NCBI GenBank assembly: GCA_032250735.1
Contig: JAVVEP010000007.1
Location: 62,001-126,000, forward strand
From: Gammaproteobacteria bacterium
GTDB lineage: Bacteria; Pseudomonadota; Gammaproteobacteria; SZUA-152
Length of the DNA stretch: 64,000 nt
Reading direction: 5' to 3'
Positions within the stretch are counted from its first letter, which is position 1. Every line of letters starts with the position of its first letter. Below, in pieces: positions 51,401-64,000 of the stretch. A model generated the notes under the pieces. That model searched no databases. It had not been told where the DNA came from and saw nothing but the letters and a program-made list of their open reading frames with translations. The translations under genes were made by a program, and so were the position numbers.

Positions 51401-51625
51401 GAACCTGTTTGTTGTTTGGCGTATGAGTTTTTGCTGTAGCTCCTGGGGTGTTGGCAAATAACGTAATACGCTGGGCAGGTCTGCTGAGAAGGTCCAAATA
51501 TAAAGAGGCAGATTTGTTCGCGGTTGGTGGGTCACAGTTGATCAAATAAATAAAGGCGTGAGCCGGGCAAATAATAATCGAATTGCCTAATACGAATTAA
51601 CAATTGGTTGGGAGGGAGTGTTCCT

Positions 51626-52351
51626 ATGCATTTCATAATAAAAGCATCAGCGGTTGCGACACTGTTTGCTGCATCTGCAGCGTTTGCCTCTGGTGCAAGC
51701 CAGGGCAATATCGAAAACGGTAAAAATATCTACATGAATGGTAAAGGTGATGTGCCTGCCTGTAACAGTTGCCATGGCCAGGACGCCATGGGTGACGACG
51801 CCATGGGTACGCCGCGTCTGGCAGGTCAGGGCCATGTCTTCCTGGTGAAGCAGCTCGAAGATTTCGCCACCGACAAGCGTACAGATACCACCATGTTTAT
51901 CATGAACAGCAATGCCAAGGGCCTCAGCGCCCAGGATCGTGTTGATGTAGCCGCCTACGCCAACAGCCTGAGTAAAGAGCTGGCGTCCTCCGACATGGCC
52001 CAGGTTAAAGAGTTGGGTAACCCGGTAGGTGTGCGCCATCTGGGTAAATCCCTGGTGATGTATGGCGCCACAGAACGGGGTATTACCTCCTGTTACAGCT
52101 GTCACGGATTCAACGGACGCGGTGCCGCGCCGGTTTATCCGATGATCGGCGGTCAGAAATATGTCTACCTGGTCAATCAGCTGAAGAAATGGCGTGACGG
52201 TAGTCGTGCCAATGACCCCATGGGCCAGATGCGCGCCGTTGCCAAGCACATGACGGATGAGGATATTCATAACGCCGCGACCTACCTGACGTCTGCTCCC
52301 CGCACCACTGAGGGTAATGCACGCGTACCTGCTGATTATCCTGAGCATTAA
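51626..52351 (+). CDS. Dihaem cytochrome c4-like protein
   Basis: 241 residues from the ATG at 51626 (GGGAGGGAG upstream). A signal peptide ends AFA-SG. Two class I cytochrome domains: CNSCHG at about residue 46 and CYSCHG at 156, with Met ligands probably in MFIMNSNAKG and PMGQMRAVA. Cytochromes c4 pass electrons to cbb3-type oxidases, whose genes follow 4 kb downstream. Confidence 0.92.
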   Translation: MHFIIKASAVATLFAASAAFASGASQGNIENGKNIYMNGKGDVPACNSCHGQDAMGDDAMGTPRLAGQGHVFLVKQLEDFATDKRTDTTMFIMNSNAKGLSAQDRVDVAAYANSLSKELASSDMAQVKELGNPVGVRHLGKSLVMYGATERGITSCYSCHGFNGRGAAPVYPMIGGQKYVYLVNQLKKWRDGSRANDPMGQMRAVAKHMTDEDIHNAATYLTSAPRTTEGNARVPADYPEH

Positions 52352-52371
52352 TTTTCAGTATTTTTGGTGTG

Positions 52372-52402
52372 AAAAAGGGCGGATATATTCCGCCCTTTTT
52401 TT
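52372..52402 (+). terminator. Rho-independent terminator after cytochrome c4
   Basis: AAAAAGGGCGGA pairs with TCCGCCCTTTTTTT around a short AT loop. Strong stem and T-run. Confidence 0.92.
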
Positions 52403-52594
52403 GTTTGCCTTTTTATTCTCATTAGTGCTGTGCATCCTTAGTATCTCGCCCCACCGGTAGTTTTCTTATTGGGCCTTTTTTCTGGTAGAATTTCCGCGCT
52501 GAAGTGTTTCTGACTTTGTGGTCGTCGCATCACTTTAGCGTATATTTTTTTTGCCTGCAGCCGGGCTCCATCGGATAGCGGTAACCATCAAATT

Positions 52595-53254
52595 ATGTCA
52601 AAACAAAATCAGTCGTTGAAAAGCGGTGAAAAGATCCTGTTCGGGATTGTCGCGGTATTTATGGGTTTGGCCGTTATCGGTTACGCCGCCCTGGAGACGT
52701 ATCGCCTGTCACGGGATGAGCCCTTGTATGTAAACAAGACCCATTATAATTTCACGGAAGAGGGGCATCAGGGGTCGGCTTTATTTCGCAAATCTCGCTG
52801 TACCGCCTGCCACCGCGCCCTGCGTAATGGCACCAATATGGGGCTGTCACTGGACGGCGTGGGTTCATTGCGTAGCCTGGACTGGCTGGTCGCCTTTCTG
52901 GCGGATCCGGAGGCGACCTATGGCGCACGGACCTTTGATCATGGGCCGGCCCCCAAGGAGGCCGCTTACGTGGCATTGATGCCGGAAAAGGAGCGGTATG
53001 CCATTGCCGTATTTATCTCCCAGCTGAAGTCGGAGCAAGGGTCGTCATCGGCCCCCATGCCGCCTGAGGGGCGATCTGATTTCATTGATAATATGATTGG
53101 GGCGTGGGCCCCGGCAGACTGGAAAGAGCGCTTCCAGGACATTCGCACCAAGCCGCCAGCAGCAGAGCCGTCAGACAAAAGCCAGGAGCCGCAATCAGTG
53201 GCGCCTGCTTCTCAGCCATTGAATCAGTCTCGGGAGTCGAACAGTGAACAGTAG
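52595..53254 (+). CDS. Membrane-anchored monohaem cytochrome c
   Basis: 219 residues. One membrane helix (about 18-38, ILFGIVAVFMGLAVIGY), then a cytochrome c domain with CTACH at about residues 69-73 and a Met ligand probably in YVALMPEKER. The tail (about 180-219) is Pro/Ser-rich and likely unstructured. It is similar in layout to the protein at 59952-60443 (GEKILFGIVAVF versus GEKGILLGIVVF; LDGVGSLR versus LDGMGSMR), so the two are probably paralogues. First gene of a module with a short oxidase subunit I and a thioredoxin-like lipoprotein. Confidence 0.88.
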   Translation: MSKQNQSLKSGEKILFGIVAVFMGLAVIGYAALETYRLSRDEPLYVNKTHYNFTEEGHQGSALFRKSRCTACHRALRNGTNMGLSLDGVGSLRSLDWLVAFLADPEATYGARTFDHGPAPKEAAYVALMPEKERYAIAVFISQLKSEQGSSSAPMPPEGRSDFIDNMIGAWAPADWKERFQDIRTKPPAAEPSDKSQEPQSVAPASQPLNQSRESNSEQ

Positions 53255-53777
53255 TCATCAGGAGCCGTGGGTCCAGGACACGGAATACACGCGTTATACC
53301 CTATGGTTTATTTATGCCTGCATTATCTACAGCATCATCGGATTTTCCTGGGGGGCGTTAATGGGTGGCATCTCCGAATTCCGCTACTTTGTCGACCATC
53401 GGCTGCACGGCAACCTGATCGTGCGCGCTCATACCCATATCAATTTGCTGGGCTGGGTGGAGATGGCAATCTTTGGCGCGGTCTATTACATTATCCCGCG
53501 CCTGGTGAAGCGCCCCATCTACAGTCTGCGATTAGTGCGGCTGCATTTCTGGACGCATAACTTTGGGCTTATCGGCATGGTGGTGTTTTTTACCGCGGCC
53601 GGTGTGCTGGGTGGTTTGACCAGCGAAACGGGCACGCCGGAGCAGGTTGAGGCGGTGGTGAAACCACTGCTGGCAACCATGGGCATTTTTGGCTCCCTGG
53701 TACTGCTGGCGAATTTTATCTGGGCATACAACCTGTTTCGTACCTGTGCCGGCTGGGAAAGGCGGAGTGAATCATGA
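53244..53777 (+). CDS. Half-size cbb3-type oxidase subunit I homologue
   Basis: 177 residues from a GTG overlapping the previous gene by 11 nt, with GGGAG upstream. Four to five membrane helices. The segment RAHTHINLLGWVEMAIFGAVYYIIPR and the following RPIYSLRLVRLHFWTHNFGL match the CcoN core (compare AHAHLALLGF and NFHFW in the CcoN at 55946). The full set of haem and copper ligands of a twelve-helix oxidase cannot fit. It may bind one haem b through the HTH and HFWTH histidines (inference). It is intact at both ends, with overlaps to both neighbours, so it is not a decayed fragment. Confidence 0.82.
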   Translation: MNSSHQEPWVQDTEYTRYTLWFIYACIIYSIIGFSWGALMGGISEFRYFVDHRLHGNLIVRAHTHINLLGWVEMAIFGAVYYIIPRLVKRPIYSLRLVRLHFWTHNFGLIGMVVFFTAAGVLGGLTSETGTPEQVEAVVKPLLATMGIFGSLVLLANFIWAYNLFRTCAGWERRSES

Positions 53778-54334
53778 AAAAACTGCGATGGTTTGGTCTG
53801 TGCCTGCTGGTTTTGCTGACCGGCTGCATTTTTGATGATGGCACCTACAAGGTAGGGATGACGGTACCGAGCCTGCGCACCAAAACGCTCGAAGATGTGG
53901 GCGGTGATTTAACGCGCATTACCACCTATCGCTATCCCGATAAGCGCATGTATCAGCATTCACTGGATGAGGCGCTGCTCAAGGAGCAGGTGATCGTGTT
54001 GGTTTTTGCAACACCTGGGCATTGCACGCAATGTGACAAGCACCTGCAGATGCTGAAGGCTGCGCTGGATAAATTTGAGGATGATGTGCTGTTTCTACAT
54101 ATGGATCAGTATCAAAATCCAGAGGCCTTTAATGCGTTTAAGGTGATCGGCGATCCGTGGACGTTTATCATTGATACCAAACAAACGGTGCGCGTGAAAC
54201 GTGCGGGGCGCATGTTGCTGCGTGAGGTGGATGTGATGGTTGCCAGCTTGCTGAAGGAAGGCGCTGCGCAGGAAACCGTTTCGCAACAAGGCGATATACA
54301 GAAAAGCGATTCACAGAAAAATACGGCAGGTTAA
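53774..54334 (+). CDS. SCO/thioredoxin-like lipoprotein
   Basis: 186 residues; ATGA overlap with the previous gene. The lipobox LTGC follows GLCLLVLL. The domain has a thioredoxin-like core with CTQC in ATPGHCTQCDKHL (about residues 80-92) and a cis-Pro region in GDPWTFIIDT. SCO-type or TlpA-type proteins supply copper or reduce sites in oxidases and cytochromes. Its place in an oxidase-like module fits assembly of the two genes upstream. Confidence 0.75.
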   Translation: MKKLRWFGLCLLVLLTGCIFDDGTYKVGMTVPSLRTKTLEDVGGDLTRITTYRYPDKRMYQHSLDEALLKEQVIVLVFATPGHCTQCDKHLQMLKAALDKFEDDVLFLHMDQYQNPEAFNAFKVIGDPWTFIIDTKQTVRVKRAGRMLLREVDVMVASLLKEGAAQETVSQQGDIQKSDSQKNTAG

Positions 54335-54337
54335 TTC

Positions 54338-54790
54338 GTGGCGAAGTCGGAAGTGTTTAATCTGGGGCAGGATCGTAAGGGCGTGACCTGGGATGCCTTG
54401 ATGTATGTGCCAACCGTTGCCGGGTTGGGTACCGGCGCGCTGATGTTCTGGTATGACCAGAATCAGAACCTGTCGTACCTGCTGTTTTTTCTCGCCTGTT
54501 TCTTTTTCTACCAGGGGCTGCATCGCATCCTGGGTCGGTTGATGCTGTTGCCCCGCTCGCCCGTATCGCTGGATGTATCCAGGCAAGGTGTGTCGATGAC
54601 CCTGCGCAATGGCGAAACGGTGGATCTGGTGAAGAATCTCCGCTATTACTCCGATCATGCCGGCAAATCGTTTGGTCTGACAGGGATGGATATGACCGGT
54701 GCCAAGCGCCAATATGTCTTTCATCGGGGTCAGTTTGTTGATGGGGCGGCCTATGGAAGGATTGGCGATGCCTTGAAGGTGTTTGCCTAA
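54338..54790 (+). CDS. Small membrane protein of unknown function
   Basis: 150 residues from a GTG 3 nt after the previous stop. Two close membrane helices (about 25-42 and 48-66) precede a soluble domain (about 75-150, MTLRNGETVDLVKNLRYYSD) with a PH-like strand pattern. No family recognised. The last gene of the anchored-cytochrome module. Confidence 0.68.
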   Translation: MAKSEVFNLGQDRKGVTWDALMYVPTVAGLGTGALMFWYDQNQNLSYLLFFLACFFFYQGLHRILGRLMLLPRSPVSLDVSRQGVSMTLRNGETVDLVKNLRYYSDHAGKSFGLTGMDMTGAKRQYVFHRGQFVDGAAYGRIGDALKVFA

Positions 54791-54923
54791 GACGGATTTT
54801 CCGAGGTGGTCTGTCAATATTATGGCGGTTTGCAGCGGTAGAGCTGCTGAGTCGAGGGTGCTGTCGTATATCGCTGGGAGGCGGGCACTGTCCAGTGCTC
54901 CCACGTACCCCTACCTGGATCGC

Positions 54924-55118
54924 TCAGTGTGACCTGCGCTGTCGCACAATATCCCATCCCATGAATGCCACGATAATCGCGCCCACGATACAGGCCGCAG
55001 TGATGATCCATTGCTCGGTCTCTGGCGAAACGAGACCGCCGATCAGCATGTGCAGTGAATAACCCAGAATAAAAATTGAGCTCACTGCCACCAGTGCAAG
55101 GAGGATGATTTCTTTCAT
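54924..55118 (-). CDS. 64-residue two-helix membrane protein
   Basis: Begins MKEIILLALVAVSSIFILGYSLHML, with a second helix IITAACIVGAIIVAFMGW and a basic end (RQRRSH). No clear ribosome site upstream. Hypothetical, divergent from the oxidase cluster. Confidence 0.6.
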   Translation of the reverse strand: MKEIILLALVAVSSIFILGYSLHMLIGGLVSPETEQWIITAACIVGAIIVAFMGWDIVRQRRSH

Positions 55119-55502: not shown

Positions 55503-55760
55503 ATGAAAAATCCACTAATGCTTTCTCTCGTTGGGGGAATGTTGACGGGCATGGGTAATGGTAGTGTGTTTGGTGCCGCTCTTATGTGCTTTCTTGGTCG
55601 GGGTCAGTTCGAAGACTGGGGCGGCTGGGGTAGCATGGCTTATGATCCGGCCACGTTCACGGGCTTTATTGATTGGTCGATGATTGTGTTTGGCATCGCC
55701 TTCTTTTTGATCCTTAGAGTTGCTGTAGGTCGTCATTTGGAAATCGAATCCAAGGCGTGA
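55503..55760 (+). CDS. 85-residue membrane protein at head of oxidase operon
   Basis: A strong AGGAGGTGAGG site precedes the ATG. Two helices (about 5-30, LSLVGGMLTGMGNGSVFGAAL, and 57-75, WSMIVFGIAFFLIL) are joined by a Trp/Gly-rich loop (FEDWGGWGSM). No family recognised. It lies 53 nt before the 30-residue gene and the ccoN-like gene, all with similar GGGAGG sites, so probably an accessory oxidase subunit. Confidence 0.72.
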   Translation: MKNPLMLSLVGGMLTGMGNGSVFGAALMCFLGRGQFEDWGGWGSMAYDPATFTGFIDWSMIVFGIAFFLILRVAVGRHLEIESKA

Positions 55761-55813
55761 TTCATTTTTTGTGTTTGAAAAAGTGTTCGATTTAATTTTG
55801 GGGAGGATTTGAA

Positions 55814-55906
55814 ATGGCTACCTTTGCTGGAATGATGGGGATTTTGTTAGCGCTCAGTTTTATGTGGTTCAGCTGGTTTTTGCTGATGCCACGCAGTAAG
55901 AAGTAA
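55814..55906 (+). CDS. 30-residue single-helix protein before ccoN
   Basis: ATG with GGGAGG 7 nt upstream. One membrane helix (GILLALSFMWFSWFLLM) ends in a basic tail (PRSKK). CcoQ-like small subunits have this build, though they normally follow ccoO. It is 39 nt before ccoN. Short, but position and ribosome site support it. Confidence 0.65.
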   Translation: MATFAGMMGILLALSFMWFSWFLLMPRSKK

Positions 55907-55945
55907 TTTTGGTTGATTCAGAAAAAATAACCTGGGAGGGTAAAG

Positions 55946-57352
55946 ATGTTTAAATACCTGTTTGCGAAAGCGGAAGATATCCCGGCTGGATCAGCCGCGG
56001 TCTATTTCGGATTTTCGTCTATTATTTGGTTTGTAATTGGAACCGGTTTAGGTTCTTTCAATGCGGCGAAGCTCGCGTTTCCTGATTTTGTGACTGGCAG
56101 TGAAATCCTGTCGTTTGGCCACATGCGTCAGGTTCACGTGTTGGCCGTTATTCTTGGCTGGATTTCCATGGCCTTTGCGATGGCGATGATGTACATCACG
56201 CCGGCGTTGGGTAACACCAAGCTTTGGTCTGAAAAGCTGGGTGTATGGAACTGCTTCCTTTGGAATATTGGTCTGTCTCTTGGTCTGTTCCTGTTGTGGA
56301 TGGGCGTGAGTTCCGGTCGTGAATATTCCGATATGCCTTTCGTTATCGACGTGGTTGTGATTCTGGGCCTGCTGACACCGCTGTGTGTCAATGTGTTCAT
56401 GACGATCAAGACGCGTCGTACACAGGGCATCTACACTACCAACTGGTTCTTCGGTGCCGCCACATTCATGGTGATCATCGTGTTCACCGTTGGTAATTCA
56501 CCCGAGTTCTTCCAGCTGACAGGTCTGACTGAGGCGTACCTGACCTGGTGGTTTGCCCATAATGTGCTGGGTCTGTGGATTACACCAGTTGCTGCTGCTA
56601 TCTCTTACTACGTGGTGCCAAAGGTAACCGGTAACCCGCTGTACTCGCATCGCATTGGTCATTTGCACTTCTGGTCTGTTGTGGTGTTCTATTCCACGCC
56701 GGCTGCGCATCACCTGATGTCTGCACCTCTGCCTGAATGGCTGAAGTCTTTCGCGTCAGTGGAAGGTGTGCTGATCCTGGTGCCGGCTATCGCCTTTGTG
56801 TCTAACTTGCTGCTCACCATGACCGGTAAATGGCGCATGTTTGTGGAAAATATCGAAATCAAATTCACCATCACGGGTGTGTTGATGGCGATTCCGCTGA
56901 ATATGCAAGGTGGTTTCCAGCAGACACGTGCCATCAACTGGTATATTCACGGTACTGGCTGGATCGTGGCCCACGCCCATTTGGCGTTGTTGGGTTTTTC
57001 CACCTTCCTGGAGGCGGCTGCCGTCTACTACGGCTTGCAGACTCTGCTGCGTCGCAAACTGTATTCGTTAGGTTTGGCCAACTTCCATTTCTGGATGTTG
57101 CTGATTGGCTTTACCACCTACTGGATCTCAATAACCATCGCTGGTCTGATTCAAGGTGCAGGCAAAATCTACGAAGTACCGTATATCGATGTCGTCATCG
57201 CCGAACATCCTTACATGATTGCGCGTTGGGTTGGCGGCACCATGGTGTTCCTTGGTAACTGCGTATGGCTTTACAACATGTACAAGACTGCCCGTGCCGG
57301 TACTGCGATACCTGCAGGTCGTTTGCCGCATGAGCTAGCCTACGAACGTTAA
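55946..57352 (+). CDS. ccoN: cbb3-type cytochrome c oxidase subunit I
   Basis: 468 residues, about twelve helices. All key residues of C-type haem-copper oxidases are seen: low-spin haem histidine H64 (MRQVH); CuB ligands H205 (WFAHN) and H255-H256 (PAAHH); the cross-linking tyrosine Y249, six residues before the HH pair; and the haem ligands H343/H345 (VAHAH). The tyrosine argues for oxygen reduction and against a nitric oxide reductase. Loop sequences differ from ordinary CcoN (TPAAHH in place of GPHH), so this is a divergent branch. GGGAGG upstream. Confidence 0.92.
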   Translation: MFKYLFAKAEDIPAGSAAVYFGFSSIIWFVIGTGLGSFNAAKLAFPDFVTGSEILSFGHMRQVHVLAVILGWISMAFAMAMMYITPALGNTKLWSEKLGVWNCFLWNIGLSLGLFLLWMGVSSGREYSDMPFVIDVVVILGLLTPLCVNVFMTIKTRRTQGIYTTNWFFGAATFMVIIVFTVGNSPEFFQLTGLTEAYLTWWFAHNVLGLWITPVAAAISYYVVPKVTGNPLYSHRIGHLHFWSVVVFYSTPAAHHLMSAPLPEWLKSFASVEGVLILVPAIAFVSNLLLTMTGKWRMFVENIEIKFTITGVLMAIPLNMQGGFQQTRAINWYIHGTGWIVAHAHLALLGFSTFLEAAAVYYGLQTLLRRKLYSLGLANFHFWMLLIGFTTYWISITIAGLIQGAGKIYEVPYIDVVIAEHPYMIARWVGGTMVFLGNCVWLYNMYKTARAGTAIPAGRLPHELAYER

Positions 57353-57379
57353 TAGAATAATTAAGGGGAGGAATTAACC

Positions 57380-58330
57380 GTGGCTTTTAGAGAATATAAA
57401 ATCGGAACCCGAATGTTCGGTTTAGCGTTCGGTACATCCATGTTTATTACGTTGTACATGCCAGCAGTGGATATTCAGAATGTATCCGCGACATCCATTG
57501 CGATGGATCGTCAGTTGTCATTTGGTCGAGTGGGTGGTTTCAGCTACGAAGATCCGTTTCTTCAGGGTGATGCCAAGCCAATTACGGTACAGATAAGCCA
57601 GGATCCCAAGACGGGGGCTGCCATTGAATCGACGCGCGCTTTTGTTTATGAAGCCAACGTGCCGTTTCCTAATGGTATCCGCCATCCGCGGATTCTGGGT
57701 AAAGCACCGTCCGCAGCAAGCGCTTCCAAAGGCCGTATTGCGGAGGCATCTGAAGCGCAGGGAGCCGTTTTCCTTGTACGGGAAACCATAGAGGGTGGTG
57801 TAGCGGTGCCGTACATTGAAAATGCAACGGCAACCCGTGGCTGGACACCTGCTGCGACGTTGTCGAAAGCCAGTGATTCACAGCGCCTGCTGGTTGGTAA
57901 GGGTAAAATCATGTTTGTCCGTGAAGGCTGCTGGTGGTGTCACACCTTGTTGCCGGAACAGACGCAGGATTGGCAGTACTTCGGTGCACCGCCTATGCTG
58001 GGAGACTTTAACGGTGAGTCACCAACCGCATTTGGTTCTGACCGCAAGGCGCCTGATTTGACGCACGTGGGTTCGCGTAACTCCTCACGTGAATGGATGA
58101 TGATGCACTTCTTCAATCCTCGTCTGGTTCAGTCGCATTCCATCATGCCTCGCTATGATTACCTGTGGGGTGAGAAGGATGCTAGCGGAAATACCATTGA
58201 CTATGATGGCTGGCGTACTGCCTATACGGCATATGCTGCTGGCGAGTCGATCTATCCGCCAGAGGTTCCGGTGCCGGCTGCTGACAGTGAAGCCCGTGCG
58301 TTAATCGACTTTGTTCTGAACATGAAATAA
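57380..58330 (+). CDS. ccoO: cbb3-type oxidase subunit II (CcoO), monohaem, enlarged
   Basis: 316 residues from a GTG with GGGGAGGAA upstream. An N-terminal anchor (about 12-30) is followed by about 130 residues not found in ordinary CcoO, then the haem domain: VREGCWWCHTLLPEQ (haem site C184-H188), KAPDLTHVGSRNS and the Met-ligand region SHSIMPRYDYLW. Standard CcoO is about 200 residues, so the insert is the odd feature. The haem domain makes the assignment firm. Confidence 0.9.
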   Translation: MAFREYKIGTRMFGLAFGTSMFITLYMPAVDIQNVSATSIAMDRQLSFGRVGGFSYEDPFLQGDAKPITVQISQDPKTGAAIESTRAFVYEANVPFPNGIRHPRILGKAPSAASASKGRIAEASEAQGAVFLVRETIEGGVAVPYIENATATRGWTPAATLSKASDSQRLLVGKGKIMFVREGCWWCHTLLPEQTQDWQYFGAPPMLGDFNGESPTAFGSDRKAPDLTHVGSRNSSREWMMMHFFNPRLVQSHSIMPRYDYLWGEKDASGNTIDYDGWRTAYTAYAAGESIYPPEVPVPAADSEARALIDFVLNMK

Positions 58331-58341
58331 GGGGAGTAGAC

Positions 58342-58980
58342 ATGGCTTGGAAATTTGATAACCCACTGCACACCCTGTGTACGGACGATCAGAATGAAAA
58401 GGCGAAGGCCGTTTGGGAAGGTGAAAGCCTGGGCGGGATTACGGAAGACAATAATCGTCTGCCCCCACCCATCATCGGCATCTTGTTGCTGACGATCGTC
58501 ACGGCATTCCTGATTACCTTTCCGCTTTGGGGCCAACGCCCGAATGCGGCTATCTACGAAGAATACATTGCATTGATGGATTCTCCGGCGATTCAGGGTA
58601 AGAGCGATGCGGAAGCGATGGAATACATGGTAAATAAGGTCAAGGCAGATGGTTCCAAGTGGGCTCATTTGCAGGAGCGTCATCCCTTAGAAATGGATGA
58701 TCTTCGCCTGATCAAGGACGCGATCATCGAGCTTAAGCAGCAAAAGGCCGATCTGCGTGAGTTCAATATATTGGGCGATGCTGTGGTTATGGCCAATTTT
58801 GAAGGTAACTGGATCACTGATCCTAATACCGGCGAGATTCGTCGTGAACGCGTGCAGCCCTGGTGGGATAAGGGATATACCATTGACATTTTCTTCATCG
58901 TCTTTTTCTGCCTGGGTGTGATGATTGCCGTAAAGCGCCTGCCTGATTATGGCTGGGAGCCGAAACACTTTGGTCACTAA
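58342..58980 (+). CDS. Haem-free subunit with FixP_N-like segment
   Basis: 212 residues. The N-terminus (TEDNNRLPPPIIGILLLTIVTAF, about 35-58) resembles the FixP/CcoP N-terminal domain: a short acidic/asparagine stretch, a double proline and one helix. A middle helical domain lacks any CxxCH. A second helix (about 182-200, IDIFFIVFFCLGVMIAV) closes the protein. It stands where ccoP should be. Probably the haem-free equivalent of CcoP, with the haem carried by another protein such as 59952-60443 (inference). Confidence 0.7.
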   Translation: MAWKFDNPLHTLCTDDQNEKAKAVWEGESLGGITEDNNRLPPPIIGILLLTIVTAFLITFPLWGQRPNAAIYEEYIALMDSPAIQGKSDAEAMEYMVNKVKADGSKWAHLQERHPLEMDDLRLIKDAIIELKQQKADLREFNILGDAVVMANFEGNWITDPNTGEIRRERVQPWWDKGYTIDIFFIVFFCLGVMIAVKRLPDYGWEPKHFGH

Positions 58981-59009
58981 ATTCTAGGAATTCGAGAGGA
59001 GAAGCAATC

Positions 59010-59141
59010 ATGATAGATCTTGATAATGGCCCATTGGCAATGTTGATTTGGATACTGCTGGTTTACACCGCACCTTTTATCTATAGTTTTTATGTTGATA
59101 AAACGGATCAGGGCAAGCCGGGTATCGGTGATTACGGTTGA
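59010..59141 (+). CDS. 43-residue single-helix membrane protein
   Basis: ATG with GAGAGGAG upstream. It begins MIDLDNGPLAMLIWILLVY, with one helix (about 9-28), then DKTDQGKPGIGDYG. It lies 29 nt after the FixP_N-like gene and before a strong hairpin. Likely a small oxidase subunit. No family named. Confidence 0.7.
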   Translation: MIDLDNGPLAMLIWILLVYTAPFIYSFYVDKTDQGKPGIGDYG

Positions 59142-59169
59142 TTTAGACGTTCTAAATTGATTGGTTGGA

Positions 59170-59207
59170 GGCCAGGGCCATGTCGGGAAACCGACATGGC
59201 CCTGGCC
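59170..59207. terminator. Perfect 17-bp hairpin with GAAA loop
   Basis: The 17-nt arms at 59170-59186 and 59191-59207 are exactly complementary around the tetraloop GAAA. No T-run follows directly (GTTTAG), so it is either an imperfect terminator or a stabilising/attenuating structure between the two parts of the oxidase cluster. Confidence 0.7.
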
Positions 59208-59324
59208 GTTTAGCTGTTGATATTTTTTACGGTCAATGGACTTAACATGGTAAAATGATTGTCCAAGTGAGTTCAACGGTGTCTCCCGCATCGGCTATTT
59301 TCCTTGAGTGTGTGCTGTAGAAAT

Positions 59325-59666
59325 ATGATTCCTGAAGTAATAAAAACGGTGGTTGACACAGTATTTTCTCGGTTGCCAGTAAGCGAGTTGATAGGAGTTG
59401 CTCTTTCGGTAAAAGAGGGTTCAGGGCCGTTTGGTGTTGATACCAGCATCGAGGGTATGAAATCTCAGGAGTTTAGCGTCGGAATATTTTATTTTCTGAT
59501 TGCCTCCATCATTGTTTTTACGATTTTTGTATTCATGTTTATGTTAAAAGGGAAATCGTCCAGTTTGAAGCGGGGCGAAATGATAATGTTTGTCTGGATT
59601 CTGCTGGGTATCGTTGTGGCGGTGGGATTTGGGGCGGCACAAATGCTTCACGGATATTTGTTTTAG
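59325..59666 (+). CDS. 113-residue membrane protein in the oxidase cluster
   Basis: From the ATG at 59325; a TTG 21 nt upstream is possible. An N-terminal soluble/amphipathic stretch (about 1-50) is followed by two helices (about 54-74, FYFLIASIIVFTIFVFMF, and 86-106). No family recognised. The stop is followed after a few bases by the GTG of the CcoS-like gene, with the AGGAGGTG site overlapping the stop. Confidence 0.72.
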   Translation: MIPEVIKTVVDTVFSRLPVSELIGVALSVKEGSGPFGVDTSIEGMKSQEFSVGIFYFLIASIIVFTIFVFMFMLKGKSSSLKRGEMIMFVWILLGIVVAVGFGAAQMLHGYLF

Positions 59667-59676
59667 GAGGTGTAAG

Positions 59677-59952
59677 GTGGCTGAGTTTTTTAATTCGTTT
59701 GAAGATGGTTGGACAATTTACCTTTGGTTGGTTGCGGGCGCGGCGATTGTGTTGACGGCAATCTATTGGGTGCGTTGGGCTGCGCAGAATGATCAGTTTG
59801 ATGAGGATATCAAATACGTTGTATTCGATGAAAATGACCGAGACAAGATGGCGCCAGAAGAGTTTGAAAAAGCGATGAAGGTAAATCGTGATCAGGAAGC
59901 CTTGCGTAAGGTGTATCTGGAAAAAGAGGCTGCGAGAAAACAGAAATCCTGA
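59677..59952 (+). CDS. CcoS-like small oxidase assembly protein
   Basis: 91 residues from a GTG preceded by AGGAGG; earlier in-frame starts run through the previous gene and are rejected. One helix (about 15-35, TIYLWLVAGAAIVLTAIYW) is followed by WAAQNDQFDEDIKYVVFDEN, the CcoS pattern (helix, then 'QFDD...ILFDDD'). The charged tail (to residue 91) is longer than in CcoS (about 50). CcoS is needed for cofactor insertion into cbb3 oxidases. Confidence 0.7.
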   Translation: MAEFFNSFEDGWTIYLWLVAGAAIVLTAIYWVRWAAQNDQFDEDIKYVVFDENDRDKMAPEEFEKAMKVNRDQEALRKVYLEKEAARKQKS

Positions 59953-60443
59953 TGATGAAAAAAGGTGAAAAAGGTATTCTTCTCGGGATTGTCGTCTTTG
60001 CGGTGATTGCAATGGCTGTTAAGGGCTGGATGGCGGGTCAGCAGACAGAAAAGGATCCGGGGATCCCTTTCTACAGTACCGCGTCGGAACAGCTGGCCTC
60101 TGAGGCATCTGTCCTTTACCGGAAATACAATTGTCGTGATTGTCATGCCTTGTGGGGGCTGCGTAATATTATGCAGGCGGTTCCTGCGCCATCGTTAGAC
60201 GGCATGGGTTCGATGCGTGATGAACAGTGGTTATACGATTATTTTTCGGCAAAAGATCCTCAGTCAATCATTCCCTCCAGACTTAAAGAAAGATTCCGTA
60301 TGCCATCTTATGCTGATATCCCGGAGGCCGATCGGCGAGTGCTTGCCCAGTATATTGCCAGTTTGAAAGTGGAAGACTGGTATCTGGAAGAAACTAAAAA
60401 GACTGCCTATGAGAAACTCACTGGCAAGGAATATCAGCAATGA
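59952..60443 (+). CDS. Membrane-anchored monohaem cytochrome c of the oxidase cluster
   Basis: 163 residues; the ATG overlaps the preceding TGA. One helix (about 9-27, ILLGIVVFAVIAMAVKGWM), then CRDCH at residues 61-65 and a Met ligand likely in FRMPSYADIPEADRR. It is a paralogue of the anchored cytochrome at 52595-53254. In this cluster it can take the place of the haem c domains of CcoP. Confidence 0.88.
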   Translation: MMKKGEKGILLGIVVFAVIAMAVKGWMAGQQTEKDPGIPFYSTASEQLASEASVLYRKYNCRDCHALWGLRNIMQAVPAPSLDGMGSMRDEQWLYDYFSAKDPQSIIPSRLKERFRMPSYADIPEADRRVLAQYIASLKVEDWYLEETKKTAYEKLTGKEYQQ

Positions 60444-60961
60444 TATTCCGCGTGCACTGGTATTCATTCTGGATCGCCCTGCTGGTTGGTTGCCTGGTGA
60501 ATGTGTTTGGTGACTGGCTGTTTGGTGTCCGAATCGAATTGTTTTGGGGGCTGCAGACGTTTAATTTTCTGTGGTTCCTGCAGCTTTTTGTATGGCCAGT
60601 GGTTGTGGGTATTTCAGTATCGTATGTCTATGGTCTGGGTGGAAAGTGGATTGCAATATTTCCACCCCTTATCGTGCGATTTGCTGCCTATTACCAGACC
60701 GTCGAATATATCGGTGTGCCCGAGGGTGCCGCCTTGATGCCGTTAGGCTGGTGGGGCTTTTTCGTCATCCTGGCGATGGAGGCCGCTATGATTGGTGGCG
60801 TGCTGGGTGAGATTATGAATAAACGGGTATATGGCTGGAAGAAGGCGCGACATGTATCGGATGGCGAGACCGATACGGTCGCCACCGGGGAGCCGGAAAC
60901 ACGAACGACGTTGACTGGCGGCCGGCTGAGTGCCGATAAAAATGCCGATTCTGGAGTCTAG
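60440..60961 (+). CDS. Four-helix membrane protein of unknown function
   Basis: 173 residues, ATGA overlap with the previous gene. Helices lie near 8-28, 40-65, 68-88 and 98-122, rich in Trp/Phe (FNFLWFLQLFVWPVVVG). The tail (about 135-173) is polar. No family recognised. Coupling on both sides places it within the oxidase operon. Confidence 0.72.
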   Translation: MIFRVHWYSFWIALLVGCLVNVFGDWLFGVRIELFWGLQTFNFLWFLQLFVWPVVVGISVSYVYGLGGKWIAIFPPLIVRFAAYYQTVEYIGVPEGAALMPLGWWGFFVILAMEAAMIGGVLGEIMNKRVYGWKKARHVSDGETDTVATGEPETRTTLTGGRLSADKNADSGV

Positions 60962-60962
60962 A

Positions 60963-62060
60963 GTGGCAATGCAGCACAAGGAAAAAACTTATCAAATCAA
61001 GCTGACGTCGCAAGAACAGCAGAAACGTGAGCGCTATCTTGCGGCCACCATAATTACCTGCATTGCTGCAGCAATGGTCTTTGGGGCCCTACATGTGGTG
61101 AAACTGGGTGCAAACCGTATGGCCGATATGAAAGATCGCGCCACCTATGATTTGGCCGATATGAAAGATCACATCCGCGCCGCTGGTGAGGACATCGAGC
61201 GTCACCGCCACCATGAATCGCAGAAGCAGGCGACCAGGACCTATGCCTGGAATGAGGTCGAGGCGTTACTGACGCCCGAGCAGTGGGCAGACATAAGTAC
61301 TGAAGTGTCGATTCCGGCAGGGCCGTTTTTGATGGGTACCGATTCGGAGCGGGCGGATAAATTTAATCGTCCCCAACACGAGGTTGTATTGCCTGAGTAC
61401 CAGATTGACAAATATCCGGTGACCTATGCGGAGTATGCGCGCTTTGTAGTTATGACGAAGCATCGCCCACCCCTCGACTGGACCGAGGGGACAATCCCGG
61501 ACGGAAAGACGTTGTACCCGGTAACCATGGTGGCATGGAATGACGCGGTTGATTACTGTGCCTGGGCAGGAAAACGCTTGCCCACGGAGGCCGAATGGGA
61601 GAAGGCGGCTCGGGGTACAGATGGGCGTCGCTGGCCCTGGGGTAACACGATGGATGCCAGCAGGTTGAATACCTATTATCACGTCGGTTCGAGCACGCAA
61701 GTCATGAAATATAAAGCCGGTGTAAGCCCGTATGGCGTTTACGATTTGGCCGGTAATGTGAGCGAATGGACGGCCAGTGATTTCACCCCATATCAGGGTT
61801 CGACTGAAGACAGTGATGTGTTTCAGCCTAAAAAAATGCAGGCCACCAGTGCGGCAGATCGTGGTATGAAAGTGGCGGACCTGGTGGCCGTGGATGGTGT
61901 TTACAAGGTTCGGCGCGGTGGCTCCTGGAAGAGCGATCCATTTTCGACATCCGCGTATCACCGGAACTTCTCGCTTCCCTATTATGCCTCAGACTTTTTC
62001 GGGTTTCGTTGCGCCAGAAATGCGCCAGCAACAGCTGACCCTCAAATGATAACCAAGTGA
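60963..62060 (+). CDS. Anchored FGE-sulfatase (SUMF1)-fold protein
   Basis: 365 residues from a GTG with GGAG upstream; an ATG two codons on is an alternative. One membrane helix (about 24-42) and a polar stretch are followed by the formylglycine-generating-enzyme fold (about 115-360): VSIPAGPFLMGTDSERAD, YPVTYAEYARFV, GKRLPTEAEWEKAARG, YDLAGNVSEWTASDF and a final RRGGSWKSD/FFGFRCARN. The catalytic cysteine pair of true FGE is not apparent. Such domains occur in NirV and in modifying enzymes. Here it sits in an oxidase operon, so a binding or assembly role is more likely than sulfatase activation. Confidence 0.87.
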   Translation: MAMQHKEKTYQIKLTSQEQQKRERYLAATIITCIAAAMVFGALHVVKLGANRMADMKDRATYDLADMKDHIRAAGEDIERHRHHESQKQATRTYAWNEVEALLTPEQWADISTEVSIPAGPFLMGTDSERADKFNRPQHEVVLPEYQIDKYPVTYAEYARFVVMTKHRPPLDWTEGTIPDGKTLYPVTMVAWNDAVDYCAWAGKRLPTEAEWEKAARGTDGRRWPWGNTMDASRLNTYYHVGSSTQVMKYKAGVSPYGVYDLAGNVSEWTASDFTPYQGSTEDSDVFQPKKMQATSAADRGMKVADLVAVDGVYKVRRGGSWKSDPFSTSAYHRNFSLPYYASDFFGFRCARNAPATADPQMITK

Positions 62061-62297
62061 GTGCCTCCAGTGCGTAAATTGTTCATCCAGATTCCGTTGT
62101 TCATGTTGTTGTTTACGCTGATGTCGTCTGCCTACGCGGTGGACAGTTATCGCTATGCCCATGTGACGATTGAGACACCCTGGGCAATATTTATATTTCT
62201 GTTGTTAATCATACTTTTGCCTTTTGTGTTGATGGCCGTGCTGTACTGGTATTTCGCCACCAAAAAGTCAGATGGGGAAAGTGCTGAGCATGAGTAA
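62061..62297 (+). CDS. 78-residue membrane protein
   Basis: GTG directly after the preceding TGA; a GTG 9 nt on is possible. Two hydrophobic stretches: a signal-like one (LFMLLFTLMSSAYAV) and a helix (about 41-65, IFIFLLLIILLPFVLMAVLYW), then an acidic tail. The stop overlaps the start of the next gene. Unknown function. Confidence 0.7.
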   Translation: MPPVRKLFIQIPLFMLLFTLMSSAYAVDSYRYAHVTIETPWAIFIFLLLIILLPFVLMAVLYWYFATKKSDGESAEHE

Positions 62298-62712
62298 CAT
62301 GGTTGTGCGCCTGATCTGGCTGGTTGTGTTGCTGGGTAGTTTTCCGGCATTGAGTGTGGCCGATGAAAACACGGAATCGTCTCCAGTGGTATCGGAAGCC
62401 CAATCGCAACAAAAAGATTTATCGCGGCTGGAAGATAGTGAACAGCAGAGTGCAAGCGTAATTCAGTCTTTCGACTCTGATCGGTCGGCAAAAAGCGCGC
62501 TGGTAGCGATTGAAGATCAAACCAAGCGTCTGGTGATGTTTTTTATGGGTGTGCCGCTGCTGATTTTCTTGATTGCAACGGCCGCCCTGGGTGTGGCCAT
62601 GGGGGTTTATGGTAAGCCTGTATTCGTTGCCCATATGGTATGTGCCGGTCTGAGTCTCACCTTGGCCCTCGGGCATGCCGTTGTTGGGATTGTCTGGTTT
62701 TATCCCTTTTAA
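62290..62712 (+). CDS. 140-residue membrane protein at end of oxidase operon
   Basis: From the ATG at 62290, overlapping the previous gene by 8 nt; GGGGAAAG upstream. Signal peptide (LIWLVVLLGSFPALSVA), a Gln/Ser-rich helical region (about 25-75) and two helices (about 78-100 and 106-136), the last reading LSLTLALGHAVVGIVWFYPF. No family recognised. Last gene of the cluster. Confidence 0.72.
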   Translation: MSNMVVRLIWLVVLLGSFPALSVADENTESSPVVSEAQSQQKDLSRLEDSEQQSASVIQSFDSDRSAKSALVAIEDQTKRLVMFFMGVPLLIFLIATAALGVAMGVYGKPVFVAHMVCAGLSLTLALGHAVVGIVWFYPF

Positions 62713-62826: not shown

Positions 62827-64000
62827 ATGCAACAGGTTCTTGTTACACGTCGGCTCGGCCTTATCCTGATTTCGCTTTACCTGGTCTCTGGTGCGGCGGG
62901 TCTCTGTTATGAAATCCTCTGGACACGCATGTTGTCGTTGCAGTTTGGCGTCAGCATTTTTGGCGTGGTGGCTACCGTTACCGCCTACATGGCAGGCCTG
63001 GGGGCGGGCAGTCTGATAGGTGCATACTGGAGCCGTAGGACAGCGCGACCTTTACGTCTGTTCGCATGGCTGGAGCTGTCGATCGCCATCGCGGCACTGC
63101 TGATACCCATGATGTTTCAGTTTCTGGACGGACAATTTTCCCTGCTGGCCGGCAGCATGGGCTATTCGGGCTGGCTGGGCTTGCAGATTATTGTGGTGAC
63201 CCTGGTATTGATGGTGCCCGCCCTGGCCATGGGGGCCGGTTTTCCATTGGTGCTCTCTGCGGTGCAGAATACGAAAATCACCCTGGGCGGACTGTATGGT
63301 ATTAACGCACTAGGCGGGGCCATCGGCGCATTGTTGCCGCTGTGGTTGTTACCCAACCTGGGCTGGTTGTCCTCACTGCGAGCGGTTGCGGTGCTGGGTT
63401 GTATGGTGGCTGTGATCGCACTGTTTTTGTCCTGGCGACATGAGGCCAGCGAGCGTGTGTCGGATGAGCCTGTCATACAACGGCCAGCCATAAAATGGTT
63501 GCTGATTTATGCCGGGGTTGGCGGCGGCGCGTTGATGCTGGAAATTGGCTGGACGCGTCTGTTCGGGATGGTGATGTTGCGTACGGAATATGTGCTAGCC
63601 ATTATCCTCGCCGTCTTTTTGCTGGGTATTGGCTTTGGTAGTCTGCTGGCCCGCTACCTCACCCAACGTATCTGGTTCACGCTGTTGCCCATTATCGCCT
63701 GCGGTTTTGCAATTCTGAGTCTGTGGTGGTTGCCGGTGCTGTCGGCCTGGCTCGAAGAGGGGCGATTCTCTTCGCTGTCAGCGGCGCTGTGGCTACAGGG
63801 GTCCGCGGTGGTCAGCCTGACTCTGCCGGTAACGCTGGTGCTGGGTGCATGGTTGCCCCTGCTGGCCATGCGCCTGGGTGATCGCTTTCAGAGTGGCGTC
63901 TGGCTTTATGGTGCCAATTCCTTGGGCGCCGCAGGCGGGGCTTTGCTGGCAGGTTTCGTGTTGATCCCGAGCATCGGCAGTAGTGCCACGGTCGCCACCG
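62827..64000 (+). CDS. Membrane spermidine-synthase-like protein, N-terminal part (3' end outside window)
   Basis: The frame is open from the ATG at 62827 to the end of the window (391 codons). About eleven or twelve helices in an MFS-like order. SGAAGLCYEILWTRMLSL near the start and GGALMLEIGWTRLFG in the middle are the paired signatures of the membrane-bound SpeE-like family, whose methyltransferase-fold domain normally follows at the C-terminus, beyond this window. Function in this family is largely unknown. Not obviously part of the oxidase operon (114-nt gap). Confidence 0.82.
   Translation, partial: MQQVLVTRRLGLILISLYLVSGAAGLCYEILWTRMLSLQFGVSIFGVVATVTAYMAGLGAGSLIGAYWSRRTARPLRLFAWLELSIAIAALLIPMMFQFLDGQFSLLAGSMGYSGWLGLQIIVVTLVLMVPALAMGAGFPLVLSAVQNTKITLGGLYGINALGGAIGALLPLWLLPNLGWLSSLRAVAVLGCMVAVIALFLSWRHEASERVSDEPVIQRPAIKWLLIYAGVGGGALMLEIGWTRLFGMVMLRTEYVLAIILAVFLLGIGFGSLLARYLTQRIWFTLLPIIACGFAILSLWWLPVLSAWLEEGRFSSLSAALWLQGSAVVSLTLPVTLVLGAWLPLLAMRLGDRFQSGVWLYGANSLGAAGGALLAGFVLIPSIGSSATVAT

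Follow-up and report, generated by a model that had tools for sequence, protein, structure and literature searches.

The window analysed here, a stretch of 64,000 nucleotides (positions 62001-126000 of contig C7 in a 3.43-Mb assembly that is 99% complete), comes from a genome whose nearest named relatives are metagenome-assembled genomes (MAGs) of Gammaproteobacteria. It carries a cluster of cbb3-like oxidase genes in which a CcoN-like catalytic subunit and a CcoO-like subunit are followed by a haem-free protein at the position of CcoP, and by a series of small membrane proteins (Table 1). When 84,980 species genomes were scanned with a CcoO alignment, 210 relatives were obtained, the best 80 of which were named and kept; these 80 loci are not independent of each other, and each gene-presence count has as its denominator the loci that reach far enough to be read at that gene. 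Because the hidden Markov models for CcoN and the short COX1-like protein cross-match, as do those for the two monohaem cytochromes, the counts were repeated with filters on position and length. Assignments of membrane anchors and hydrophobic stretches were made by eye, and for the micro-proteins additionally with a simple hydropathy filter. The cluster is real, well conserved and coherent, and its gene order, for which a preliminary description of this DNA had proposed a search, recurs in Gammaproteobacteria MAGs, Zetaproteobacteria, Gallionella, Sideroxydans and Ferrovum. Among the best 80 of the 210 relatives, the Zetaproteobacteria include Mariprofundus, and further relatives are MAGs of other Proteobacteria and one peat Burkholderiales MAG; the named carriers include Ferrovum myxofaciens P3G (L102) as well as MAGs assigned by name to Mariprofundus, Sideroxydans and Gallionella. 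Viral contigs scanned with the CcoO protein and the CcoN alignment yielded no relatives.

Table 1 Genes and features of the oxidase cluster and its flanks, in window coordinates
Feature	Position	Strand	Profile match or folding energy	Loci with the feature
Dihaem cytochrome c (two CxxCH), likely periplasmic electron carrier, possibly Cyc1-like (likeness inferred)	51608-52351	+		34/50
Monohaem cytochrome c, hydrophobic N-terminus	52595-53254	+		44/53
Short COX1-like protein, 177 aa, resembles C-terminal third of CcoN	53244-53777	+	COX1 profile 303-426, E=1.1e-17	43/55
Thioredoxin-like protein, CxxC, lipoprotein-like N-terminus	53774-54334	+		44/56
Conserved protein of the upstream block	54338-54790	+		44/56
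Small hydrophobic protein of the upstream block, opposite strand	54924-55118	-		45/57
85-aa protein, two hydrophobic stretches, first core gene	55503-55760	+		64/64
Micro-protein 1, 30 aa, one hydrophobic stretch	55814-55906	+		71/71
CcoN-like catalytic subunit of a separate subfamily	55946-57352	+	COX1 E=2.3e-74	70/70
CcoO-like subunit, one haem c (CWWCH), extra domain of ~119 residues past the first helix	57380-58330	+	FixO E=9e-18	69/69
Haem-free FixP_N-like protein at the CcoP position, conserved Glu35 of GGIxE(D/N)NN	58342-58980	+		68/68
Micro-protein 2, 43 aa, one hydrophobic stretch, after the haem-free protein	59010-59141	+		68/68 examined (77 loci hold the haem-free protein)
Hairpin, 17 bp, between core and downstream genes	59170-59207	+	-41.7 kcal/mol	
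Small membrane protein, conserved part ~59450-59666, start uncertain	59304-59666	+		62/66
CcoS(FixS)-like small membrane protein, conserved QFDEDIKY motif, GTG start inferred	59677-59952	+	FixS E=0.016	62/66
Monohaem cytochrome c, hydrophobic N-terminus	59952-60443	+	Cytochrom_C E=5.6e-5	61/64
Multi-pass membrane protein	60440-60961	+		56/63
FGE-fold protein, hydrophobic N-terminus, without FGE-like cysteine pair	60930-62060	+	FGE-sulfatase E=7.5e-54	55/59
Small membrane protein, conserved VDSYRYxHVTxxTPW motif	62061-62297	+		55/59
Small membrane protein, two conserved His (HMxxAG...AHA)	62272-62712	+		55/59
Spermidine-synthase-like membrane protein, 873 aa, extends past the window end	62827-64000	+		49/54

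The CcoN-like protein scores 217.9 bits against TIGR00780, the cut-off of which is 583, and is 30-31% identical to the ordinary CcoN of its own genome, encoded on contig C22. In 3mk7 numbering, residues H60, H207, Y251, H257, H258, H345 and H347 are retained in the 76 window-type rows (H60 in 75, with one gap); we take the six histidines to be the haem and CuB ligands, and Tyr251 to be the cross-link tyrosine at its C-family position. The active site, cross-link tyrosine included, had been described as complete for the window, and it is so in every window-type sequence with a letter at these positions. In a maximum-likelihood tree of 78 rows, thinned to 42 of the 76 window-type rows and leaving out fragments shorter than 380 residues, all 42 window-type sequences lie on one side of a single branch (Shimodaira-Hasegawa-like approximate likelihood ratio test, SH-aLRT, 100), and the CcoN of the window is placed outside the 32 ordinary CcoN rows. 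The stem of this clade amounts to 3.45 changes per site, and the tree program warns of long branches. When the tree is rooted on two nitric oxide (NO) reductase (NOR) rows, window-type CcoN lies with the other C-family rows, a tentative placement in which long branches meet and the sampling covers Pseudomonadota only. Profile scores are 793-963 bits for near-complete window-type rows and at most 298 for all other full-length oxidase rows. As judged from sequence, the cluster encodes a C-family (cbb3-like) haem-copper oxidase of a separate subfamily. The distinct subfamily put forward in the preliminary description is supported by a CcoN clade of its own and a recurring gene set, although the lineage has already been glimpsed in print and is not unseen.

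The conserved active site also bears on a different function for the enzyme, which might reduce NO or another small oxidant and not O2, as in the NOR branch. NorB has no C-family cross-link tyrosine, and its FeB has a glutamate ligand instead. The CuB histidines and the cross-link tyrosine are kept in all 76 window-type sequences, whereas both NOR rows (one annotated as NOR, the other assigned from norQ/norD-like neighbours) show glycine at the tyrosine position, and the oxidase is accompanied by putative relatives of CcoS and CcoG, which are assembly proteins of cbb3. In favour of such a function, a short COX1-like protein is encoded upstream of the cluster, and the accessible part of one report indicates that some Zetaproteobacteria carry denitrification genes (PMC8114936). 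Because the tyrosine and the CuB ligands are kept, an assignment as NO reductase was rejected, and reduction of an oxidant other than O2 is considered highly unlikely.

As proposed earlier, the CcoP position, after ccoO, is occupied by a haem-free FixP_N-like protein: the number of CxxCH motifs is zero in 77 of 77 members, and although FixP_N matches the window protein alone with E=0.004, under Pfam's cut-off, it is found with E<=0.01 in 29 of 37 members of the family. A profile search of the Protein Data Bank (PDB) with the haem-free protein returned only three matches, with E values of 1-1.4, and a predicted model (predicted template modelling score, pTM, 0.57) gave no Foldseek match better than E=1.4. 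Glu35 is found in all 76 readable rows (of 78), and the matching glutamate of CcoP is presumably a proton entrance. That Glu35 is kept while the haem domain is lost suggests that the haem-free protein serves in proton uptake or has a structural role.

An alternative is that the window holds an ordinary cbb3 oxidase with an odd operon, its dihaem CcoP being supplied by a standard ccoNOQP elsewhere in the genome. Such an operon does exist: the only other full-length haem-copper oxidase subunit I of the genome lies in a complete, ordinary ccoNOQP on contig C22, where the O gene matches FixO, the Q gene FixQ, the P gene FixP_N and two further cytochrome domains, the G gene FixG_C and the H gene FixH. 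However, the CcoN of the window does not fall within ordinary CcoN but in its own clade, and the haem-free protein takes the place of CcoP throughout the loci read there. The distribution across Zetaproteobacteria also speaks against it. The long CcoO is present in 41 of 78 genomes and absent from 37. Both oxidase types occur together in 21 of these 41, with CcoP in 20 of the 21, which would suit a borrowed subunit; the other 20 have no ordinary ccoN, and full-length CcoP (counted at E<1e-30) is found in 0 of these 20, 13 of which are at least 90% complete. Weaker CcoP matches in the window-type-only genomes (~1e-11 to 1e-15), which extend over no more than the cytochrome part, were left out of this count. 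The window-type oxidase is therefore independent of CcoP at the genome level. A CcoP borrowed from the ordinary operon was rejected on the strength of the 20 genomes without any full-length CcoP, and the supply of CcoP from elsewhere, largely refuted by them, is very improbable.

The CcoO-like subunit, too, departs from its ordinary counterpart. The FixO match is confined to residues 173-266, and since CcoO profile position 174 pairs with residue 55 of 3mk7_B, the insert amounts to ~119 residues, not the roughly 130 first reported; the single haem described at the same time is upheld by a single CxxCH in the CcoO of 80 of 80 relatives. An AlphaFold model of CcoO (44 sequences) folds residues 61-180 into an alpha/beta domain with block means of 86-97, whereas residues 188-204 and 215-232, past the haem site, are poorly predicted. 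The five best Foldseek matches of this model are all CcoO chains (E 4.9e-4 to 3.4e-3, with low TM-scores), the next match has an E value of 0.21, and no PDB match was found for the insert itself.

The residues usually associated with proton delivery are altered throughout the subfamily. Window-type CcoN carries the substitutions S240G, Y317A, E323Q and E125D in 76 of 76 sequences, whereas Ser240, Tyr317, Glu323 and Glu125 are present in 32 of 32 ordinary CcoN; position 338 changes from tyrosine (31 of 32 ordinary rows) to glycine, and the window type is further set apart by histidines at 235 and 239. Ser240 and Tyr317 are taken here to be part of the C-family K-channel, with a presumed role for Glu323 as well. 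Gln323 is not a mark of the window type, because two plasmid-borne C-family outliers from Paraburkholderia and Sinorhizobium also carry it, yet keep Ser240 and Tyr317. These outliers (L143, Paraburkholderia pBN2, where ccoN adjoins genes for a small cytochrome c and a cation P-type ATPase; L147, Sinorhizobium meliloti pSymA) represent two more divergent C-family CcoN types. Replacement of Ser240, Tyr317 and Glu323 in every window-type sequence would be consistent with a loss of proton pumping, O2 being reduced with electrons and protons while none are pumped. Against this, Arg57 and Glu122, named as residues of the periplasmic cavity in the accessible part of an earlier study (PMC3431322), are retained, position 125 is still acidic (Asp), the glutamate of the FixP_N-like protein is kept, and a rebuilt path could make use of His235 and His239, which occur in all 76 sequences. 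Loss of pumping is viewed as unlikely. A more specific proposal, possible but doubtful, is that the subfamily rebuilt the proton input of cbb3: the CcoP haem domain would have been dropped and its entry glutamate kept, the K-channel Ser/Tyr/Glu replaced, and a new path formed by the new invariant His235/His239 and dedicated micro-subunits, the enzyme being adapted to electron donors outside the cell, for example Fe(II).

Two micro-open reading frames (micro-ORFs) missed in the preliminary description flank the core subunits. That of micro-protein 1 lies just before ccoN and has a ribosome-binding-like site in front; among the 71 loci, 57 were detected with one regular expression and the other 14 among 65 with a second. 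Neither micro-protein matches Pfam. The hairpin directly follows the second micro-ORF. In 49 of 64 relatives, a 44-nt segment located between the end of the haem-free protein gene and a point 150 nt into the next ORF folds below -20 kcal/mol, a count made without a shuffled control. The hairpin is not listed in a terminator scan, by which it is without the T-run of an intrinsic terminator, and between positions 54800 and 63000 neither promoter-like sites (7 against 10.4 in shuffles) nor terminator-like sites (11 against 9.4) rise above shuffled sequence. A role in the unequal expression of core and accessory genes may be guessed at. The earlier account placed haem c on a separate anchored protein behind a strong hairpin; both elements are present, but two genes (59304 and 59677) separate them.

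The six small membrane proteins and the FGE-fold protein noted earlier lie between 55503 and 62712, where several genes overlap, and are conserved in relatives. FixS is the sole match of the CcoS-like protein, below the 23.1-bit cut-off; in three relatives scanned it is the best match in two (3.4e-4 and 5.3e-4) and second in the third, all below Pfam's cut-off. The cytochrome at 59952-60443 has one CxxCH in 65 of 65 sequences. Beyond the window, past the spermidine-synthase-like gene before which the first reading had ended, lie two further genes. One encodes a ferredoxin-type membrane protein related to CcoG (47 of 53 loci), which matches Fer4_18 (3.3e-11) and Fer4_5 (6.8e-9) and is 22% identical to the CcoG of contig C22 (E=9e-13) but, unlike the latter, has no FixG_C; the product of the other has a 55-residue stretch resembling the haem-free protein (pairwise E=5e-7) and no FixP_N match.

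In summary of the comparison with ordinary cbb3 (CcoNOQP; Pseudomonas stutzeri 3MK7/5DJQ and the contig C22 copy), the window type shares the CcoN active site, the CcoO haem c domain, a FixP_N-like N-terminal part and putative CcoG/CcoS-related helpers. It differs in its divergent CcoN with S240G/Y317A/E323Q, its CcoO insert and the missing dihaem CcoP, as well as in the two micro-proteins, the FGE-fold protein and other extra genes. The reading that we consider probable is that of a C (cbb3)-family haem-copper O2 reductase of a separate, CcoP-free subfamily. Its electrons would come from outside the cell or from the periplasm; in some carriers Fe(II) would be a main donor, delivering them via a porin cytochrome of the Cyc2 type and further cytochromes in the periplasm. 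Entry would be through the single CcoO haem c, probably aided by the anchored cytochrome encoded at 59952, which has one haem c, and the electrons would pass on to haem b, O2 being reduced at haem b3-CuB with the cross-linked tyrosine. Because the usual CcoN K-channel residues are gone, protons should take a rebuilt path, and the haem-free protein may have been retained, with its conserved FixP_N glutamate, for a structural or proton-uptake job. The small proteins and the CcoS-like, CcoG-related and FGE-fold proteins are candidate dedicated subunits or assembly factors of the complex.

The link to iron was examined through the Cyc2-like proteins of carrier genomes. The genera of the named strain and of the genus-named MAGs among the best 80 relatives are known for iron oxidation. 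In one locus (L107), a Cyc2-like ORF is encoded 6.7 kb downstream of the oxidase genes, the only such ORF among the loci scanned, and a profile built from this ORF and its matches also detects porin cytochromes, some of them perhaps not genuine Cyc2. With this profile, a Cyc2-like protein was found in 63 of 369 class genomes, made up of 19 of the 33 genomes that carry the oxidase and 44 of the 336 that do not (p=2.7e-8, uncorrected for relatedness). When the four genomes that supply profile rows are left out, the counts are 16 of 30 and 43 of 335 (p=8.1e-7, the genomes not being independent). The enrichment is about eight- to nine-fold as an odds ratio. Among the 57 nearest genomes, with strong CcoO matches only (E<1e-100), the corresponding counts are 16 of 20 and 3 of 37.

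Several observations weigh against the reading of a CcoP-free O2 reductase fed in part by Fe(II). The oxidase is known here from its genes, and the putative proton route is drawn from presumed channel residues and a glutamate motif. Three Zetaproteobacteria loci (L096, L098 and L100) have the core but lack the downstream block with the 59952 cytochrome. No Cyc2-like match is found in 14 of the 33 carriers, while 44 genomes with a Cyc2-like protein have no such oxidase, and the match in the genome of the window was weak by single query (3.0e-6) before becoming itself a profile row. Zetaproteobacteria are held to be iron-oxidising as a whole class, according to the accessible part of one report (PMC7029218), so that the 37 genomes that manage without the oxidase show it not to be required for iron oxidation. 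These 37 genomes and 14 carriers, together with the many carriers that are Gammaproteobacteria MAGs of unknown physiology and the multihaem cytochromes near the window start, which point to broader extracellular electron traffic, would suit a general microaerobic or extracellular-electron oxidase, its iron link reflecting shared habitat and ancestry. That is possible, though less likely than not; the iron-oxidising genera among the best 80 relatives and the enrichment of Cyc2-like genes speak against it. The data support an association between the CcoP-free oxidase and iron that is a tendency, not a rule.

Parts of this picture are already in print. The names 'proximal' and 'distal' for two forms of cbb3 reportedly follow Ducluzeau 2008. 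In the accessible parts of the literature, both forms are described in Zetaproteobacteria (McAllister 2020, PMC7029218), and most Gallionellaceae are said to have either (Hoover 2023, PMC10734462). Sideroxydans ES-1 has two cbb3 clusters of differing subunit composition, a homologue of Cyc1 adjoining one cbb3 cluster; growth on Fe(II)-citrate raises its proximal ccoNO, and growth on thiosulfate the distal form (Zhou 2022, PMC8788666). The window type may correspond to this published 'proximal' form, a likeness drawn from the descriptions available, not from sequence comparison. For Ferrovum JA12, only subunits I and II of cbb3 are reported, and co-localised c-type cytochromes were proposed to replace subunit III (PMC4725956). 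Its relative Ferrovum myxofaciens P3G carries a window-type cluster; JA12 itself is likened by description only, and the passages seen on it make no mention of a haem-free FixP_N-like protein, micro-proteins, an insert or channel residues (PMC4725956). Candidatus Tenderia electrophaga combines a low-expressed ordinary ccoNOPQ with another, highly expressed oxidase, 'complex IV-2', again likened to the window type only from the description in the part available (PMC5371394). Hence the parts of these papers that were accessible already record both the occurrence of two forms of cbb3 among iron oxidisers and the lack of subunit III in Ferrovum. No literature match combined cbb3 and ccoN with a formylglycine-generating protein, and literature on missing ccoP, at the level of titles and abstract starts for part of the matches, held nothing on this cluster. 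In the accessible literature, which leaves supplements and Ducluzeau 2008 outside, no description was found of the haem-free protein, the micro-proteins or the channel changes: the lineage has been glimpsed, its anatomy has not been found described.

This anatomy matters for how iron oxidisers are interpreted. In the parts of the reports available, the oxidases of Mariprofundus PV-1 (PMC3179512) and Ferrovum (PMC4725956) are annotated as cbb3, and O2 affinity in the former and proton pumping in the latter are assigned by analogy. If many iron oxidisers (41 of 78 Zetaproteobacteria genomes) use a CcoP-free enzyme with altered proton-path residues, these assumptions need testing. The combination of window-type CcoN and long CcoO offers a specific sequence signature for doing so, and the cluster represents a natural experiment as to which parts of cbb3 are indispensable to the entry of electrons, to proton uptake and to assembly.

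The block upstream of the core, which comprises the dihaem and monohaem cytochromes c, the short COX1-like protein, the thioredoxin-like protein and others (51608-55118), is less constant. Where the loci of Ferrovum, Sideroxydans and Gallionella extend far enough, the block is absent from this site, although part of it lies nearby on the other strand in the Sideroxydans locus. Its dihaem cytochrome c is also missing from several Zetaproteobacteria loci. A second short COX1-like protein (L031:17617-18222) resembles, like that of the window, the C-terminal third of CcoN and flanks the cluster. One genome (G005) has two copies of the cluster (L016 and L017), with CcoO 91% and 80% identical to that of the window; its assembly is listed as 5% contaminated, and one copy may be foreign.

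Formylglycine-generating enzyme (FGE) has a catalytic cysteine pair in its FGE domain. In the FGE-fold protein, the cysteine columns (held by at least 5 of 61 rows) are at residues 44 (60 rows), 210 (42) and 361 (58), with no close pair, and FGE activity was rejected for want of it. This protein travels with the oxidase all the same and possibly has a structural or assembly role. Elsewhere in the window, positions 160-29143 encode multihaem cytochromes, beta-propeller proteins, CcmF (cytochrome c maturation) and a porin, which suggests extracellular electron transfer. Finally, genomes of the window's family hold porin cytochromes (L155-L165) in which FA(R/H/T)K stands ahead of the haem site where Cyc2-like proteins have FARQ.

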